Shown piece by piece: positions 37,628 through 44,653 of a DNA stretch of 64,000 nt. The translations under genes and the position numbers were made by a program. The notes below the pieces were generated by a model. It made no database searches, was not told where the DNA came from, and saw only the letters and a program-made list of their open reading frames with translations. Within the stretch, counting starts at the first letter, position 1, and each line of letters begins with the position of its first letter. This stretch comes from an uncultured Bacteroidota bacterium (lineage in GTDB: Bacteria; Bacteroidota; Bacteroidia; Chitinophagales; Chitinophagaceae), in NCBI GenBank assembly GCA_903887415.1, contig CAISPO010000018.1, positions 62,001-126,000 of the forward strand. Reading direction: 5' to 3'.

Positions 37628-37966
37628 CTAATTCCCAATTCCAGCATTTTCGGCTATATCCTGCATACTAATCCCGTTGTGGCTTTCTTCGTAGGTACAC
37701 TCGCCGTTTTTTATTAGCAATACCTGCGGCGACTGATGATGCACGTGGAAATCTTCCGCTATTTTATTTGATAGTGGCCGGTATTTTAAGAGGTCGAGGT
37801 AATAGAAATGCACATTGTGCGCCGGAGTTTCCCGCTCCAGCCTGCTTTTAGCCATGCTGCTTATCGAGCAGCGTGTACTGTGCTTAAAAATGACAACGGG
37901 GCTATGTTTGCTTTGTTCTTTTATCTGCTCTAATTGAGGTTCATCTGTCAGCGCTATCCAATTCAT
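37628..37966 (-). CDS. ytxJ: YtxJ-family bacillithiol-system redox protein
   Basis: 112 residues of thioredoxin-like fold. HSTRCSISSMAKSRLE has a single active-site Cys (TRCSIS) instead of CxxC, as in the monothiol bacilliredoxin YtxJ. LDLLKYRPLSNKIAEDFHVHHQSPQVLLIKNG follows, with the cis-Pro block. It should reduce bacillithiol-mixed disulfides. No bshABC genes are in the window, so the cofactor link rests on the family. Confidence 0.88.
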   Translation of the reverse strand: MNWIALTDEPQLEQIKEQSKHSPVVIFKHSTRCSISSMAKSRLERETPAHNVHFYYLDLLKYRPLSNKIAEDFHVHHQSPQVLLIKNGECTYEESHNGISMQDIAENAGIGN

Positions 37967-38030
37967 GAAGCAAATTTACGAAATTGAAAAAATGCAGCAG
38001 AATATGGCTATCACTGATTTTTATGATCCA

Positions 38031-38924
38031 TTAAATAGGGGTATGCTTCAGCACACCGCATGAGAAGCCTAGGCCAAGATTAAAGGATGTGTACATTGAT
38101 GTGAAAATGCTCTTCGAAGAGTTGTCGGCAGCAACCTCCTGGTAGCCGGGCATTACCCCGGCATCCCATCTGAAGTATAGCCCGAATATTTTGGTGCTGT
38201 GAATGGCCCAGCCAAAACGCCAGCCCAATGGACGTTTCACGGCATGCGTCACGTCATTGCCGGGAGAAAGAGGTAGCGTTGTTTGCCCGATGCTAGTGCT
38301 GGAGGGTATCAACATATCCAGGTAGAGCTCCCGGTTATATTTAATGCCAACTTTGCGCGGATCGTCCAGCTTCGCATTAAATATCCTTTTTGAGGACAGC
38401 CCGGCATACAATATAGCCGATTTATAATTCACGTACTGCGATTGGTTTTGAATGGTTGCCATAGCGATGTTGCTGTTAAACACATCCAGTCCGCCGCGCA
38501 CACTATACAACCGCAGGGTTTCGAGGTGTATGCGTGTGCTCCGTTCATATCTCATCTCTCCCGATACCCATGAGCTTAATACCAGCTTCTTGGATACCGT
38601 CTTTTGTTTCCTGCTAAAATGAAAGTTCAGGCCTATTTCTGAGCTGTTAAACGGCTTTATCCCGTACTTCCGCATGGTATCGCTATTGAGCTTACCAATA
38701 GTCGTCAATGATTGCTCCGCCTGGAAGTCAATATATTGCCCGGTGAAGAATAATGTGGCACGGACCGGCAACCCATTTACGGACATATTGTATCCGAAAT
38801 CAGCAAAAAGAGAAAGGTTTCTCGACAATTTAGGGTCGTCATAAGTTCTCTTTTTTTCTTTCTTTTCCTGGCAGATACCTGCATGAGTGTATAACAGGAC
38901 CAGTGCAAATAGCATCTTTTTCAT
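38031..38924 (-). CDS. Outer membrane beta-barrel-like protein
   Basis: 297 residues with a signal peptide ending at about residue 18 (AGICQ). The mature part is alternating beta strands (LSLFADFGYNMSV, ATLFFTGQYIDFQAE, KLVLSSWVSGEMRYE, TSFNLGLGFSCGV), suggesting a barrel of about 10-12 strands. No family recognised. Its promoter shares a 26-bp box with that of the operon at 40790-41740, so it is probably coregulated with it. Confidence 0.68.
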   Translation of the reverse strand: MKKMLFALVLLYTHAGICQEKKEKKRTYDDPKLSRNLSLFADFGYNMSVNGLPVRATLFFTGQYIDFQAEQSLTTIGKLNSDTMRKYGIKPFNSSEIGLNFHFSRKQKTVSKKLVLSSWVSGEMRYERSTRIHLETLRLYSVRGGLDVFNSNIAMATIQNQSQYVNYKSAILYAGLSSKRIFNAKLDDPRKVGIKYNRELYLDMLIPSSTSIGQTTLPLSPGNDVTHAVKRPLGWRFGWAIHSTKIFGLYFRWDAGVMPGYQEVAADNSSKSIFTSMYTSFNLGLGFSCGVLKHTPI

Positions 38925-38943
38925 CGTACATAAGTTTTATCAT

Positions 38944-38994
38944 GCAAAAATATTTTGCGACATAAAAGCTGTCAATTACACGTTAGTGGTATTT
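38944..38994 (-). promoter_or_regulatory. Promoter plus shared box upstream of 38031-38924
   Basis: Minus strand: box AAATACCACTAAcGTGTAAT + TGACAG (38969-38994) overlaps the TTG at 38973-38975, then a 20-nt spacer and TATTTTTGC (38944-38952). It is 20 bp upstream of the ATG region. The same layout is found at 41774-41824. Confidence 0.72.
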
Positions 38995-39013
38995 TTATTT
39001 TTATCTGTACCAC

Positions 39014-39039
39014 AAAAAAGGCGCCCCTTTAGGAGCGCC
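39014..39039 (-). terminator. Rho-independent terminator of 39079-40761
   Basis: Minus strand: GGCGCTCC, loop TAAA, GGGGCGCC, then six T; eight pairs including one G-U. Just after the stop of the secreted protein gene. Confidence 0.85.
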
Positions 39040-39078
39040 AGGTATTCAATAAGTGATCAGCGTTTAAAGGCATGCTTG

Positions 39079-40761
39079 TTAGTTCATCTGGTAGCGGCCC
39101 AGCCAAATTGTAGATCGCCCATCGCTGCCAATGTAAACCATCGCCTTTTCTTTATCCAGCCAGATATACGGAGTATGACTTCTCAGTTTGTAGTTATGGT
39201 CACCAACGGTAGTATAGTCGGTGATCTTCCCTTCGTTTATGTCAAACTTTAGTACCGAAGGATAATAGGTGGAATGGTAGGTGACAACGCCCCCGGCCTG
39301 CCCGGTTTTGGCTGCATAGTTTTCATGCTCGGTAGACTCGTTCTCTAATAGCTGCAGATAAGCGCTTTTTCCGTCCTGCGATAAAATAAGCCGCTCTTTT
39401 ATGGGGAAGAAAGTGTTGATGTCTGTCTTTAATGTAGCCGGAACAATGCTGTATTGAGCCTTCAACATACCTTGTTTATCGAGCTGAAAACACATCAGGT
39501 CCTTGTAGGTTTTCCATTCCTTGCTGCTCACCTTTGTCCTCGAATTTATTTGCCCGGTTATAATGAAGTCTCCGTTGGGCAATTCCTCAAATACTGCAAT
39601 GTTCAGAAACCTGCCGTCGTAGGCATAACCTCTTTTCTGTCCCGGCGGTACCTGTAGCTTATCTTCAAAGCTTTCAATCGGGTTTTTACTGATCCATTCC
39701 ACTTTGCCGTTGTTGATCTTTATTATAGAAAATACATCCATCTTCCTTTTTTCCAGGTCCTTATGGTAGGTCTCCATGCGCTCATTTGGTTCGCCATAGT
39801 GGTCAGGGTAGGCGGGATTAACGAGGTAGATAACTTCACCGTAACGCTTCTCAAAACTGACATCCATATCACTATTGTATCCCGCGGTAAAATATACCGA
39901 TCCGTCCTTACCGCGGTAGTGACTTGATATGGTCATGTTTGGAGACGGTGCGTCTATTTCAAAGCGCTCTTTTACTTTTCCGTTGTTGTCTATACGGATG
40001 TAGGTATATTTTTTCTGATCGGGCATTGGGTCAGCCTTTTTGGGGGCAAAAACAAACATCATATCAGCATTTGCAAGGTTATTTTCAGCATCTTCCTCCT
40101 CTCCATTACCTATAAGGCCAGAATACACAAGGCCTTGGGGTGATGCAAAATCAATAGGAAATTCTTCCATCGATTTATCTGATTTTTTTACGTGCAATAA
40201 AGAAACTTTGCGGCGTTCCCCATTTTTTTCAGACATGCCCAGCATAAAAAGATCTCCAGTAGTATGATTGGAATATGCGGCGTACCCCGTATAGTATTTC
40301 TCATCTTCATTCTGCAGCGTTATCTCATCCCCCTCTTCTACGGTTCTTCTATAGCTTCCTTTATCCGCATCCCATTTATAAACATACTTGCCTATTGTTA
40401 AGTGCAGTTTAAGGCTTTCCATTGAGAGCGCTCTTCCGTTGCCCAGTTGCGCCACGATCACCTCTTTTACCTTGTCTGGTTTTGCTTCTTCCTTTTCTAT
40501 TTGGACATCTTCTTCCTTCACAAAATTTATGTCCCGGTCAAAGATGTATTTCTGGTATTCGCGCACATCCTCATTCTTGTCGCCTTTCAGGTGATACATG
40601 ACCTCGATGTTCCCGGTCTCCTTGTTGACCTTTGCACTGTGGAACTTTCCTTTGGCGGCCTCTTTTGGAAGGTCCTGTTTCGTTTCTTTCACTTGCTGCG
40701 CCTGTGTCGACGAATAGATAATTATCGCTGCAGCAAAGATTATTGATTCTATCTTTTTCAT
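39079..40761 (-). CDS. Large exported protein, possible propeller, unknown function
   Basis: 560 residues with a signal peptide ending TQAQ (about 21). A charged segment (about 22-100) is followed by repeated strand-turn-strand blocks such as GDLFMLGMSEKNG, KYTYIRIDNNGKVKERF, GSVYFTAGYNSD, GDFIITGQINSR and KAMVYIGSDGRSTIWLG. This layout suggests a beta-propeller that stays in the periplasm or on the surface. There is no T9SS tail. It follows the T9SS protein gene by 28 bp in one operon and ends at a strong terminator. Confidence 0.7.
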   Translation of the reverse strand: MKKIESIIFAAAIIIYSSTQAQQVKETKQDLPKEAAKGKFHSAKVNKETGNIEVMYHLKGDKNEDVREYQKYIFDRDINFVKEEDVQIEKEEAKPDKVKEVIVAQLGNGRALSMESLKLHLTIGKYVYKWDADKGSYRRTVEEGDEITLQNEDEKYYTGYAAYSNHTTGDLFMLGMSEKNGERRKVSLLHVKKSDKSMEEFPIDFASPQGLVYSGLIGNGEEEDAENNLANADMMFVFAPKKADPMPDQKKYTYIRIDNNGKVKERFEIDAPSPNMTISSHYRGKDGSVYFTAGYNSDMDVSFEKRYGEVIYLVNPAYPDHYGEPNERMETYHKDLEKRKMDVFSIIKINNGKVEWISKNPIESFEDKLQVPPGQKRGYAYDGRFLNIAVFEELPNGDFIITGQINSRTKVSSKEWKTYKDLMCFQLDKQGMLKAQYSIVPATLKTDINTFFPIKERLILSQDGKSAYLQLLENESTEHENYAAKTGQAGGVVTYHSTYYPSVLKFDINEGKITDYTTVGDHNYKLRSHTPYIWLDKEKAMVYIGSDGRSTIWLGRYQMN

Positions 40762-40789
40762 AACATTTTTTTTGCGGTGTAGGAATAAC

Positions 40790-41740
40790 TTATTGAATGA
40801 CTAATTTTCCGGATGCTATCTTTAAACCACTGTTCTCAACGCTGTAGAAATATAAACCGGGACATAACTGATCTCTTGAAATTGTTGTTTCAGCCTCGTT
40901 CGCTGGCACATACTTTACTATCCTGCCGGTTGCATCTGCGACGGCCAAAAAGGCATTGTACAAGCCATTTGGTGCGGCAATTTTCAGTGTACCACGGTTT
41001 GTAAGCGGGTTTGGATATATCTGTGCAGTTTCTTGAGCGCTCACTTCCTTTATCGCTGTTGTGCTGGCAGTACGTATAAATGTGTACGCATTGCTCTGCA
41101 TGTCGAAGCTTAATACTATATCAAGATTAGGTGAAGTAACATACCAATTGTAATCATAGTCGCCAGGCCCCCAGTATTTATAGATGCGAACAACATTGGT
41201 ATATGTGCCGAAAGGATTGATTAGTGTGCCATATCCGTCGTAGGTAATAGTTACAGTGTTTGCGCTGCCGCCTACTTTCTGGAAAGTATCAATTACTGAA
41301 TTCAGGTAGCTCATCGGAAATTCAACTGCGGTTTCAGGATCTGGTGTATAGTCTGTGCCGGTACCTACTCCTGAATAGTTGTTCGCCAGTTGTTCCCATT
41401 TGGATGATGACAGCCGCTCATAAATATAAGCTGATCCGCCACTGGATGGATTAACTTCTGCGCAAAAAGTAGCTGTGGGAAAAGTGCTGAAATATGGAGT
41501 AGATGCTGGGTTTACGACAGTTATAGTACCTTCGGCAACAGGTGTTAAACCACTCAGATTCCAGGTAACGCCCGCACCTCCGCCGCCAGGTGCCACAGAT
41601 GCCGTTGCTCCATAAATACTATCGGTCGTACCTACCGGAAATGGAGTCATTGTACTGACAAGTACAGGCTGAGCAAATAATGCGGCGCTTAAAGTTATCA
41701 GGTACAGAGATATTAAAACAAAGAGTGTGATTTTTTTCAT
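40790..41740 (-). CDS. Exported protein with T9SS C-terminal sorting domain
   Basis: 316 residues from ATG 41740 (MKKITLFVL); the extra eight codons upstream to 41764 are not needed. Signal peptide ends LFAQ (about 24). The C-terminal 75 residues (IYPNPLTNRGTLKIAAPNG ... LCPGLYFYSVENSGLKIASGKLVIQ) are a type A T9SS sorting signal. The passenger is Thr/Ser/Gly-rich, without a recognised catalytic domain. Under a promoter with the shared 26-bp box. Confidence 0.85.
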   Translation of the reverse strand: MKKITLFVLISLYLITLSAALFAQPVLVSTMTPFPVGTTDSIYGATASVAPGGGGAGVTWNLSGLTPVAEGTITVVNPASTPYFSTFPTATFCAEVNPSSGGSAYIYERLSSSKWEQLANNYSGVGTGTDYTPDPETAVEFPMSYLNSVIDTFQKVGGSANTVTITYDGYGTLINPFGTYTNVVRIYKYWGPGDYDYNWYVTSPNLDIVLSFDMQSNAYTFIRTASTTAIKEVSAQETAQIYPNPLTNRGTLKIAAPNGLYNAFLAVADATGRIVKYVPANEAETTISRDQLCPGLYFYSVENSGLKIASGKLVIQ

Positions 41741-41773
41741 AAAAATTAGTTTTTGGTTGGCCAATATTTCTCA

Positions 41774-41824
41774 GCAAAACTACCTCGCTGAAAAAGCTCT
41801 GTCAATTACACTTTAGTGGTATTT
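41774..41824 (-). promoter_or_regulatory. Promoter plus shared box upstream of the T9SS-protein operon
   Basis: Minus strand: box AAATACCACTAAaGTGTAAT + TGACAG (41799-41824) overlapping TTG (41803-41805), a 20-nt spacer, then TAGTTTTGC (41774-41782). It matches 38944-38994 in 25 of 26 box positions and has the same spacer length. Confidence 0.75.
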
Positions 41825-41837
41825 CGTGGTTGCTGTA

Positions 41838-42431
41838 TCAATGAAACTGTCCGTATCCAAAGCTCATCGAGAAAAGATGGTACGGTAGTTTTCCCGAGAT
41901 TGTTTGAGCATAAGTGTTGTAGATGTCCTTGTGGGTACCTGATGCGAATATTATGCTCGCCTTCAGGTAGCTCTTTTTACTCAGTGCGTATTTAACCGTC
42001 ACTTCGTTTATGCCGGGATAAGTATAAAATACCAATGGTTCATCGACCGAAATAAAGCTGAGTTGGGTGCTCCGGTGTAAAAACCGCTCATAGTCAATAT
42101 ACCATCGCTTTGTTCTTACGTGCAAGGTTGCGAACCATCCGCGGTCGCCGGGGTCGTGCAGGTATGCATTGTTTCCCTCTATGCCTAGTGTTAATTTAGC
42201 ACCCAGGTCCAGGTCCTTATTTAGCCGGTACACGCCAAATATTCCGGGTTTCAGTTCGTAGCTCACATCCATTTTGAAGCCGGACGCGTTAGCCGGATTA
42301 TAATGAATGTAACCGGTGCCGATGCTAAACGGGATATCGATTCCCGCCACTAAACCTTTGTCGGCCATTTTTCGATACAGTCGAGCACCAATAATGTTTA
42401 TCGGGAAGTGAAACGAAACTTTTAATGGCAC
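41838..42431 (-). pseudogene. 5'-incomplete outer membrane barrel gene without a proper start
   Basis: 197 residues from a GTG at 42431, with barrel strands throughout (LVAGIDIPFSIGTGYIHY, DLGAKLTLGIEGNNAY, YLKASIIFASGTHKD) and a Phe-like end (MSFGYGQFH). The reading frame stays open to a TAA at about 42609, adding KLNRYSYDATIGIGTAYLQD, which is also barrel-like. No ATG and no signal peptide are found in this stretch, so either a 5' deletion has removed the start or a frameshift in one of the poly-A/T runs (42561-42597) hides it. An exported barrel cannot function without the signal. Confidence 0.55.
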
Positions 42432-42622
42432 GAAGGTCGCCCGCTTGTTTACTGGAATTCCGCCACTGCCATCCTGTAAATAGGCAGTGCCAATACCTAT
42501 TGTAGCATCGTAAGAATAACGGTTTAGTTTGGAAGTATCAGCAGGAAATGTCAGGTGCGGTTTTTTTGGGAGGCTTTTTTGCAGAAAAATGTTTAAACCT
42601 AAATAGCCGCTTTAGAATAGTG

Positions 42623-43087: not shown

Positions 43088-43137
43088 AGAAATTATAATT
43101 ACCTGGTTAAAGGTAACATAATAAAACAACCAGGTGC

Positions 43138-43203
43138 TTAAAACTCCGCATTCTTCGGCGTTCTTGGAAAAGGTAGCACGTCCCGGATGTTCCTCGCCAG
43201 TAT
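43138..43203 (-). pseudogene. Relic 3' end of a second asnS gene
   Basis: The minus strand encodes [20 protein letters not shown] then F and TAA, the motif-3 tail of a class II asparaginyl-tRNA synthetase. It is nearly identical in protein to the end of the intact asnS 20 bp upstream ([17 protein letters not shown]) but differs at most synonymous positions. So it is a diverged homologue, not a fresh duplicate. Confidence 0.8.
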
Positions 43204-43222
43204 AGAATTAATAGAGGGCTGC

Positions 43223-44653
43223 TTAAAACTCTGCGTTTTTTGGCGTCCTCGGGAACGGTATCACGTCCCTGATATTAGTCATACCAGTAACGAATAAGAC
43301 CATGCGTTCAAACCCAAGACCAAAGCCGGCATGAGGCACTGTACCGAATTTGCGCGTGTCTAAGTACCAGAACATTTCATCCGCAGGTATGTGCATCTCT
43401 TTCATGCGCTGTGTGAGTTTGTCCAGCCGTTCCTCCCTTTGAGAGCCGCCCACAATTTCTCCTATACCTGGAGCAAGTATGTCCATCGCTGCTACCGTCT
43501 TTCCATCATCATTCTGGCGCATATAGAAAGCCTTTATCTCCTTCGGGTAGCCCGTAACGATCACCGGTTTTTTAAAGTGTTTTTCCACCAGGTAGCGCTC
43601 ATGCTCGCTCTGCATATCTATGCCCCAGCTCACATCATACTGGAATTTCTTCTTTTTGTAGGCTGGTGAGTCGATAAGTATATTGATCGCTTCCGTATAA
43701 GTAATGCGCTCAAATTTATTGTTGAGCACAAATTCCAGTTTTTCTATCAGCGGCATATCGCTGCGCTCATTCATTGGTTTTTGTTTCTCTTCGTCAACAA
43801 GGCGCTGTGCCAGGAATTCAAGGTCCTCTTTGTTATGCTGCAAAGCATATTCAATAACATACTTCAGCAGGTCTTCGGCGAGGTCCATGTTGTCATAGAT
43901 ATCATTGAATGCCACCTCCGGTTCTATCATCCAGAACTCGGCAAGGTGTCGCGCTGTGTTAGAATTCTCTGCACGGAAAGTGGGCCCGAAGGTATAAACC
44001 TCGCTAAGCGCCATAGCGCCCAGCTCGGCTTCAAGTTGGCCGCTTACCGTCAGGTTTGTCGCCCGTCCGAAAAAATCTTCTTTAAAATTGATGCTACCAT
44101 CGTCATTATGCGGTGCATTGTCGAATGGTAGGGTAGTTACCTTAAACATTTCTCCCGCACCTTCGGCATCAGATGCAGTTACAATAGGGGTATGCAGATA
44201 AACGAAGCCCCGGTCGTTAAAGAACTTATGAATAGCATAAGCCAGTGTGTGCCGTACACGGAACACCGCTCCGAACGTATTGGTACGGAAACGAAGGTGC
44301 GCTATCTCGCGCAGGTACTCCAGGCTTGGCTTGTTCTTCAATTGCAGCGGGTACTGGTCATTGTCACACTCTCCTAATATGGTTACGTTTTCAGCTTTCA
44401 CTTCCACACGCTGGCCCTTGCCCAGCGAGGGTACTACAGTCCCATCCACACTTACAGATGCCCCGGTGGCAATGCGTTTTATAATAGCTTCATCTGTGCC
44501 CAGTTCCACAACTACCTGTATGTTACCCATACACGAGCCATCGTTAAGCGCTATAAACTGGTTGTTACGGAATGAGCGTACCCAGCCTTTCACGTTTACT
44601 TTATAATCAGCTGCCTCGTTTGCTAAAATATCCTTGATCTTTGTACGTTTCAT
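43223..44653 (-). CDS. asnS: Asparagine--tRNA ligase
   Basis: 476 residues. N-terminal OB-fold anticodon domain (about 1-115: [26 protein letters not shown]), then the class II core. Motif 2 is [25 protein letters not shown] and motif 3 is [21 protein letters not shown]. The AsnRS-type rather than AspRS-type spacing and the RAENSNT block support the assignment. Essential for translation. A relic of a second asnS tail lies downstream. Confidence 0.97.

Follow-up and report, generated by a model that had tools for sequence, protein, structure and literature searches.

Closest described systems

The closest described system is NarX/NarL of Escherichia coli, with its 7-2-7 operators, e.g. in the yeaR and ogt promoters. 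NarL activates ogt1052 from −44.5, by way of one 7-2-7 site whose centre precedes the −10 element by 32 bp (PMC9314961, PMC7419079). PorXY-SigP of Porphyromonas gingivalis, likewise from Bacteroidota, is another two-component system with a link to T9SS (PMC4800418), and it acts via an ECF sigma factor on secretion-machine genes.

The locus described here lies in a window of 64,000 nucleotides from an uncultured Bacteroidota bacterium (Chitinophagaceae). Two of its genes are preceded by nearly identical boxes, and such boxes adjoin, in related genomes, genes for a regulator with the domain make-up of NarL and a HisKA_3-type kinase. As in E. coli, an inverted 7-2-7 site immediately precedes the core promoter, at a distance of 31 bp in this locus and of 32 bp in ogt1052. 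The differences from NarX/NarL are a Bacteroidota promoter (TAnnTTTG), an HTH sequence that is only distantly similar, a TPR or Reg_prop sensor, and envelope-protein targets. Compared with PorXY-SigP, the regulator is NarL-type, the promoters are sigma-A promoters and the genes encode surface or cargo proteins. To our knowledge, specific operator/regulator pairs have rarely been assigned in Bacteroidota. A literature search that covered mostly titles and abstracts, with subscription papers outside its scope, gave no apparent description of this box/regulator pair.

Two promoters with a shared box

The features of the locus are given in Table 1. The two 26-bp boxes differ by one base (25/26 identical) and both promoters display the same TTG-N20-TAnnTTTGC spacing after the box, which is the identical architecture that the initial annotation of this DNA had described. 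The 20 nt are counted from the TTG; counted from the end of the 26-mer the distance is 16 nt. In the box 1 promoter the TTG element overlaps the box end. The −7 elements of the two promoters are TATTTTTGC and TAGTTTTGC. By chance, 0.00 boxes are expected in the window, as estimated from dinucleotide shuffles. The genome-wide search that the annotation had proposed shows only the two sites, with no third copy at ≤3 mismatches in the whole 4.7-Mb genome.

Table 1. Features of the boxed locus, in window positions
Feature	Position	Strand	Sequence or remark
297-aa protein, probably exported, target of box 1	38031..38924	(-)	relatives 91% (G168), 72% (G153)
−7 element of box 1 promoter	38945..38952	(-)	TATTTTTG; 21 nt past box 1
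Box 1, 26-mer	38994-38969	(-)	AAATACCACTAACGTGTAATTGACAG
Operator box 1, 20-bp imperfect palindrome	38974..38993	(-)	AATACCACTAACGTGTAATT
560-aa protein, probably exported	39079..40761	(-)	28 bp behind T9SS gene
316-aa protein with T9SS C-terminal sorting domain (PF18962), target of box 2	40790..41740	(-)
−7 element of box 2 promoter	41775..41782	(-)	TAGTTTTG; 21 nt past box 2
Box 2, 26-mer	41824-41799	(-)	AAATACCACTAAAGTGTAATTGACAG
Operator box 2	41804..41823	(-)	AATACCACTAAAGTGTAATT
3′ remnant of barrel-like outer-membrane protein gene	41838..42515	(-)	5′ part and promoter missing
Junction	42516..42622	(.)	position of histidine kinase and response regulator in relatives

A Pfam search of the 297-aa protein gave no match. 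The 560-aa gene probably shares a transcript with the T9SS gene; its homologues in two Flavobacterium species each have their own box. The barrel-like gene is found intact, with its own box, in the relatives G168 (276 aa) and G152.

The conserved operator

A search for the 26-mer in 148 other genomes of the family gave no match at ≤3 mismatches. It is thus not a family-wide motif, and the search had to be relaxed to a 20-bp palindrome. This imperfect palindrome, AATACYACTAAAGTGKWATT, is the unit kept across genomes. Its 7-2-7 layout is NarL-like, and a sigma-A −7 element (TAnnTTTG) follows after 20–21 nt. The core consensus is TACCACT-AA-AGTGKWA. In the window the inverted heptamers with 2 bp between them are present in imperfect form (TACCACT-AA-AGTGTAA), and fully symmetric variants, ending AGTGGTA, are found in relatives. 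The extra GACAG is common only to the two window promoters and close relatives.

Mean pairwise identity among six promoters is 0.88 for the 20-bp box and 0.93 for the −7 element, as against 0.23–0.30 for the upstream flank and 0.38 for the spacer. The flanks are therefore unrelated, and the claim that the box matches while flanking sequence does not holds in this larger set. With up to 3 mismatches allowed, the composite pattern of core, 21 nt and TAnnTTTG gives 60 sites in 35 genomes of the same genus, which its named relatives place near Flavipsychrobacter, and 1 site in the reversed control. Position 19 was left free in the pattern; it is G in 42/60 sites, which completes a TTG and makes this element overlap the box end.

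G168 carries both window sites ahead of the same two genes. Homologues of the T9SS gene whose protein identity is as low as 40–50% show the same 20-bp core in the same place upstream. In the loci read, the boxed genes encode mostly exported-looking T9SS C-terminal-domain proteins, barrel-like outer-membrane proteins and lipoproteins; some of these have a Pfam match, and the remainder were called by eye from signal-peptide-like or lipobox-like N-termini. At least one boxed gene, in G098, encodes a cytoplasmic-looking, tRNA-synthetase-like protein. A lipoprotein gene of Pedobacter cryophilus is also preceded by the box. The recurrence of the box at the same distance before such genes supports, across the genus, the earlier suggestion of one regulator for envelope and T9SS-secreted proteins. 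Judged by these sequence comparisons, the 26-bp box contains a real conserved operator.

The linked regulator and its kinase

In several genomes the boxes adjoin GerE-domain genes, which make up a single orthologous group of NarL/FixJ response regulators. The regulator gene and the boxed genes are adjacent in several genomes. The protein is about 209 aa long and consists of a receiver and a LuxR-type HTH (PF00072 (REC), E-value = 3e-25; PF00196 (GerE HTH), E-value = 1e-15). The phospho-acceptor Asp and switch residues D10, D55, T83 and K105 are invariant in 18 regulator sequences. In the features examined, the linked regulator of the relatives is, by its predicted domains and residues, a NarL/FixJ family member. 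The regulator gene normally comes after one for a histidine kinase; in G152, G164, Pedobacter cryophilus and Flavobacterium luteum the preceding gene encodes a HisKA_3 kinase. The kinase displays HisKA_3 and HATPase_c domains with a TPR or Reg_prop/Y_Y_Y sensor part.

The regulator gene carries the box in its own promoter in 19/19 orthologues read (≥61% identity), at 68–88 nt before the start and 20–21 nt before TAnnTTTA. These boxes show 1–6 mismatches; the best of 1500 control windows shows 7. Composite sites are found in 20/20 genomes with the regulator and in 3/15 without it (Fisher p = 5e-7, which is optimistic because the 61% orthologue threshold was chosen after the identity gap was seen and related genomes are not independent). 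The three consist of the window's genome, G153 (82% complete) and G197 (sites with 3 mismatches), all without a recognised regulator orthologue. In G158 a diverged regulator (54%) is paired with a changed box, and the 21-nt spacing is kept. Linkage, a box in the regulator's own promoter and co-occurrence all point to this one regulator, which, identified in this way, is predicted to work like the NarL system. In G172 the regulator gene (L067 8642-9267) seems split over two reading frames; the boxes of this genome are intact.

Probably orphaned operators

In the window's genome no orthologue of the regulator was found, the best match being a 46% paralogue that is present throughout the genus, nor was a kinase match found at E-value = 1e-30. 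With neither kinase nor regulator, the window's genome has no complete two-component regulon. The gene order in G152 is AsnRS, a 168-aa gene, kinase, regulator, boxed barrel gene, boxed T9SS gene and 560-aa gene. G168 shows the same order, split over two contigs. In the window the order is AsnRS, the 168-aa gene, the barrel 3′ remnant from 42515, boxed T9SS gene, 560-aa gene and boxed 297-aa gene. Synteny with both relatives puts the kinase and regulator at the window's junction. In the stretch that separates AsnRS from the 168-aa gene, the 3′ end of the AsnRS gene is duplicated in tandem (43135-43191 and 43220-43276, 81% identity).

With kinase, regulator and the 5′ end of the first target absent from this genome, boxes 1 and 2 have probably lost their regulator or are read by a different one. 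The pair itself looks like a member of the NarL-type two-component class, orphaned in the window's genome. That another NarL-type regulator still reads the boxes, e.g. the 46% identical C34 paralogue, is unlikely, though it has to be taken seriously: the genome encodes about ten GerE-domain proteins and both boxes are intact, but composite sites are absent from most genomes that have the paralogue and lack the linked regulator, and the HTH of the C34-type paralogue differs.

The absence of kinase and regulator could also be an assembly artefact. Over window positions 37650-42515, identity to G168 is 97–99% near 41250-42515, beside the junction, as against about 82% in the flanks. Such a pattern points either to a recombination tract, with part of the cassette imported from a G168-like donor, or to a chimeric assembly. 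A chimera at 42515 that only hides the regulator is unlikely: no copy of the kinase or regulator is found elsewhere in a genome that is 99.3% complete, and a single 251-kb contig carries both sides of the junction in the order expected.

Proposed mechanism

The box is quite probably the dimer site of a NarL/FixJ regulator, encoded with its kinase beside the targets and helping sigma-A transcription, with the boxes orphaned in the window's genome. A phosphorylated regulator dimer would dock on the box just upstream of the core promoter, with the dyad roughly 31 bp ahead of TAnnTTTG, close to −43. The bound regulator would probably help sigma-A RNA polymerase start transcription. Predicted targets are the regulator's own gene and genes for T9SS cargo, the barrel-like outer-membrane protein and lipoprotein. 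Binding, phosphorylation, and activation rather than repression, are what the sequence would predict. In F. psychrophilum the −7 box was mapped at −12 to −5 (PMC9723704), and if the same holds here the dyad would lie near −43.5. Since this is close to the position from which NarL activates ogt1052, activation by the phosphorylated regulator would, by analogy, be the likeliest mode, the regulator's own gene included. Repression could also occur, as the site overlaps the −33 region.

The initial annotation had left the choice between one regulator and an alternative sigma input. The first is supported and the second is not. The box is near the −33 region, and T9SS genes are under sigma-factor control in P. 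gingivalis (PMC4800418) and F. psychrophilum (PMC9723704). However, the core element in both promoters is the standard sigma-A TAnnTTTG rather than a non-sigma-A −10 element, the box is two-fold symmetric, with symmetric variants such as AATACCACAAAAGTGGTATT, and lies in an activator position, and the gene linked to it encodes a response regulator, not a sigma factor. Recognition by an ECF or SigP-like sigma factor is thus very improbable and was rejected. That one promoter was recently duplicated in place, with no regulatory meaning, would fit two copies in the genome with 25/26 identity but is hardly credible and was also rejected, as flanks and spacer are unrelated, the same genes are boxed in G168 and the T9SS box persists across the genus in relatives of low protein identity.

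Distribution and related sequences

The dimer-site reading gives a sequence-level prediction of site, spacing, regulator, kinase and targets that is testable in Flavobacterium. In this reading T9SS cargo expression is linked to a two-component system with no sigma factor involved, and the window's genome would be a natural case of operators outliving their own regulator. A broader reading is offered tentatively. An old two-component switch and its operator, which span Chitinophagales to Flavobacterium and perhaps Chlorobi-like genomes and Verrucomicrobia as well, may control a dedicated surface-protein module (T9SS cargo, barrel-like protein, lipoprotein and 560-aa protein), and the window's genome may be a natural knock-out of the regulator, with the operators retained after partial import of the cassette.

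The regulator's own box can still be recognised in Pedobacter and Flavobacterium, and it is present in altered form in Chlorobi-like genomes. In the latter, an altered palindrome, TATTACCCGAAAGGGTTATT, is found before distant regulator homologues with a −7 element at the usual spacing (L272, L273, L275, L277). Verrucomicrobia show a different palindrome, AGTTACACGGTCGTGTAATT, about 102–106 nt upstream of the regulator homologue, without a matching −7 element (L285, L290).

A NarL-type paralogue in four genomes (L211, L212, L213, L214) displays another shared sequence, similar to AATACCGCCAAACAGGTGA, roughly 80–135 nt upstream. This is possibly another operator.
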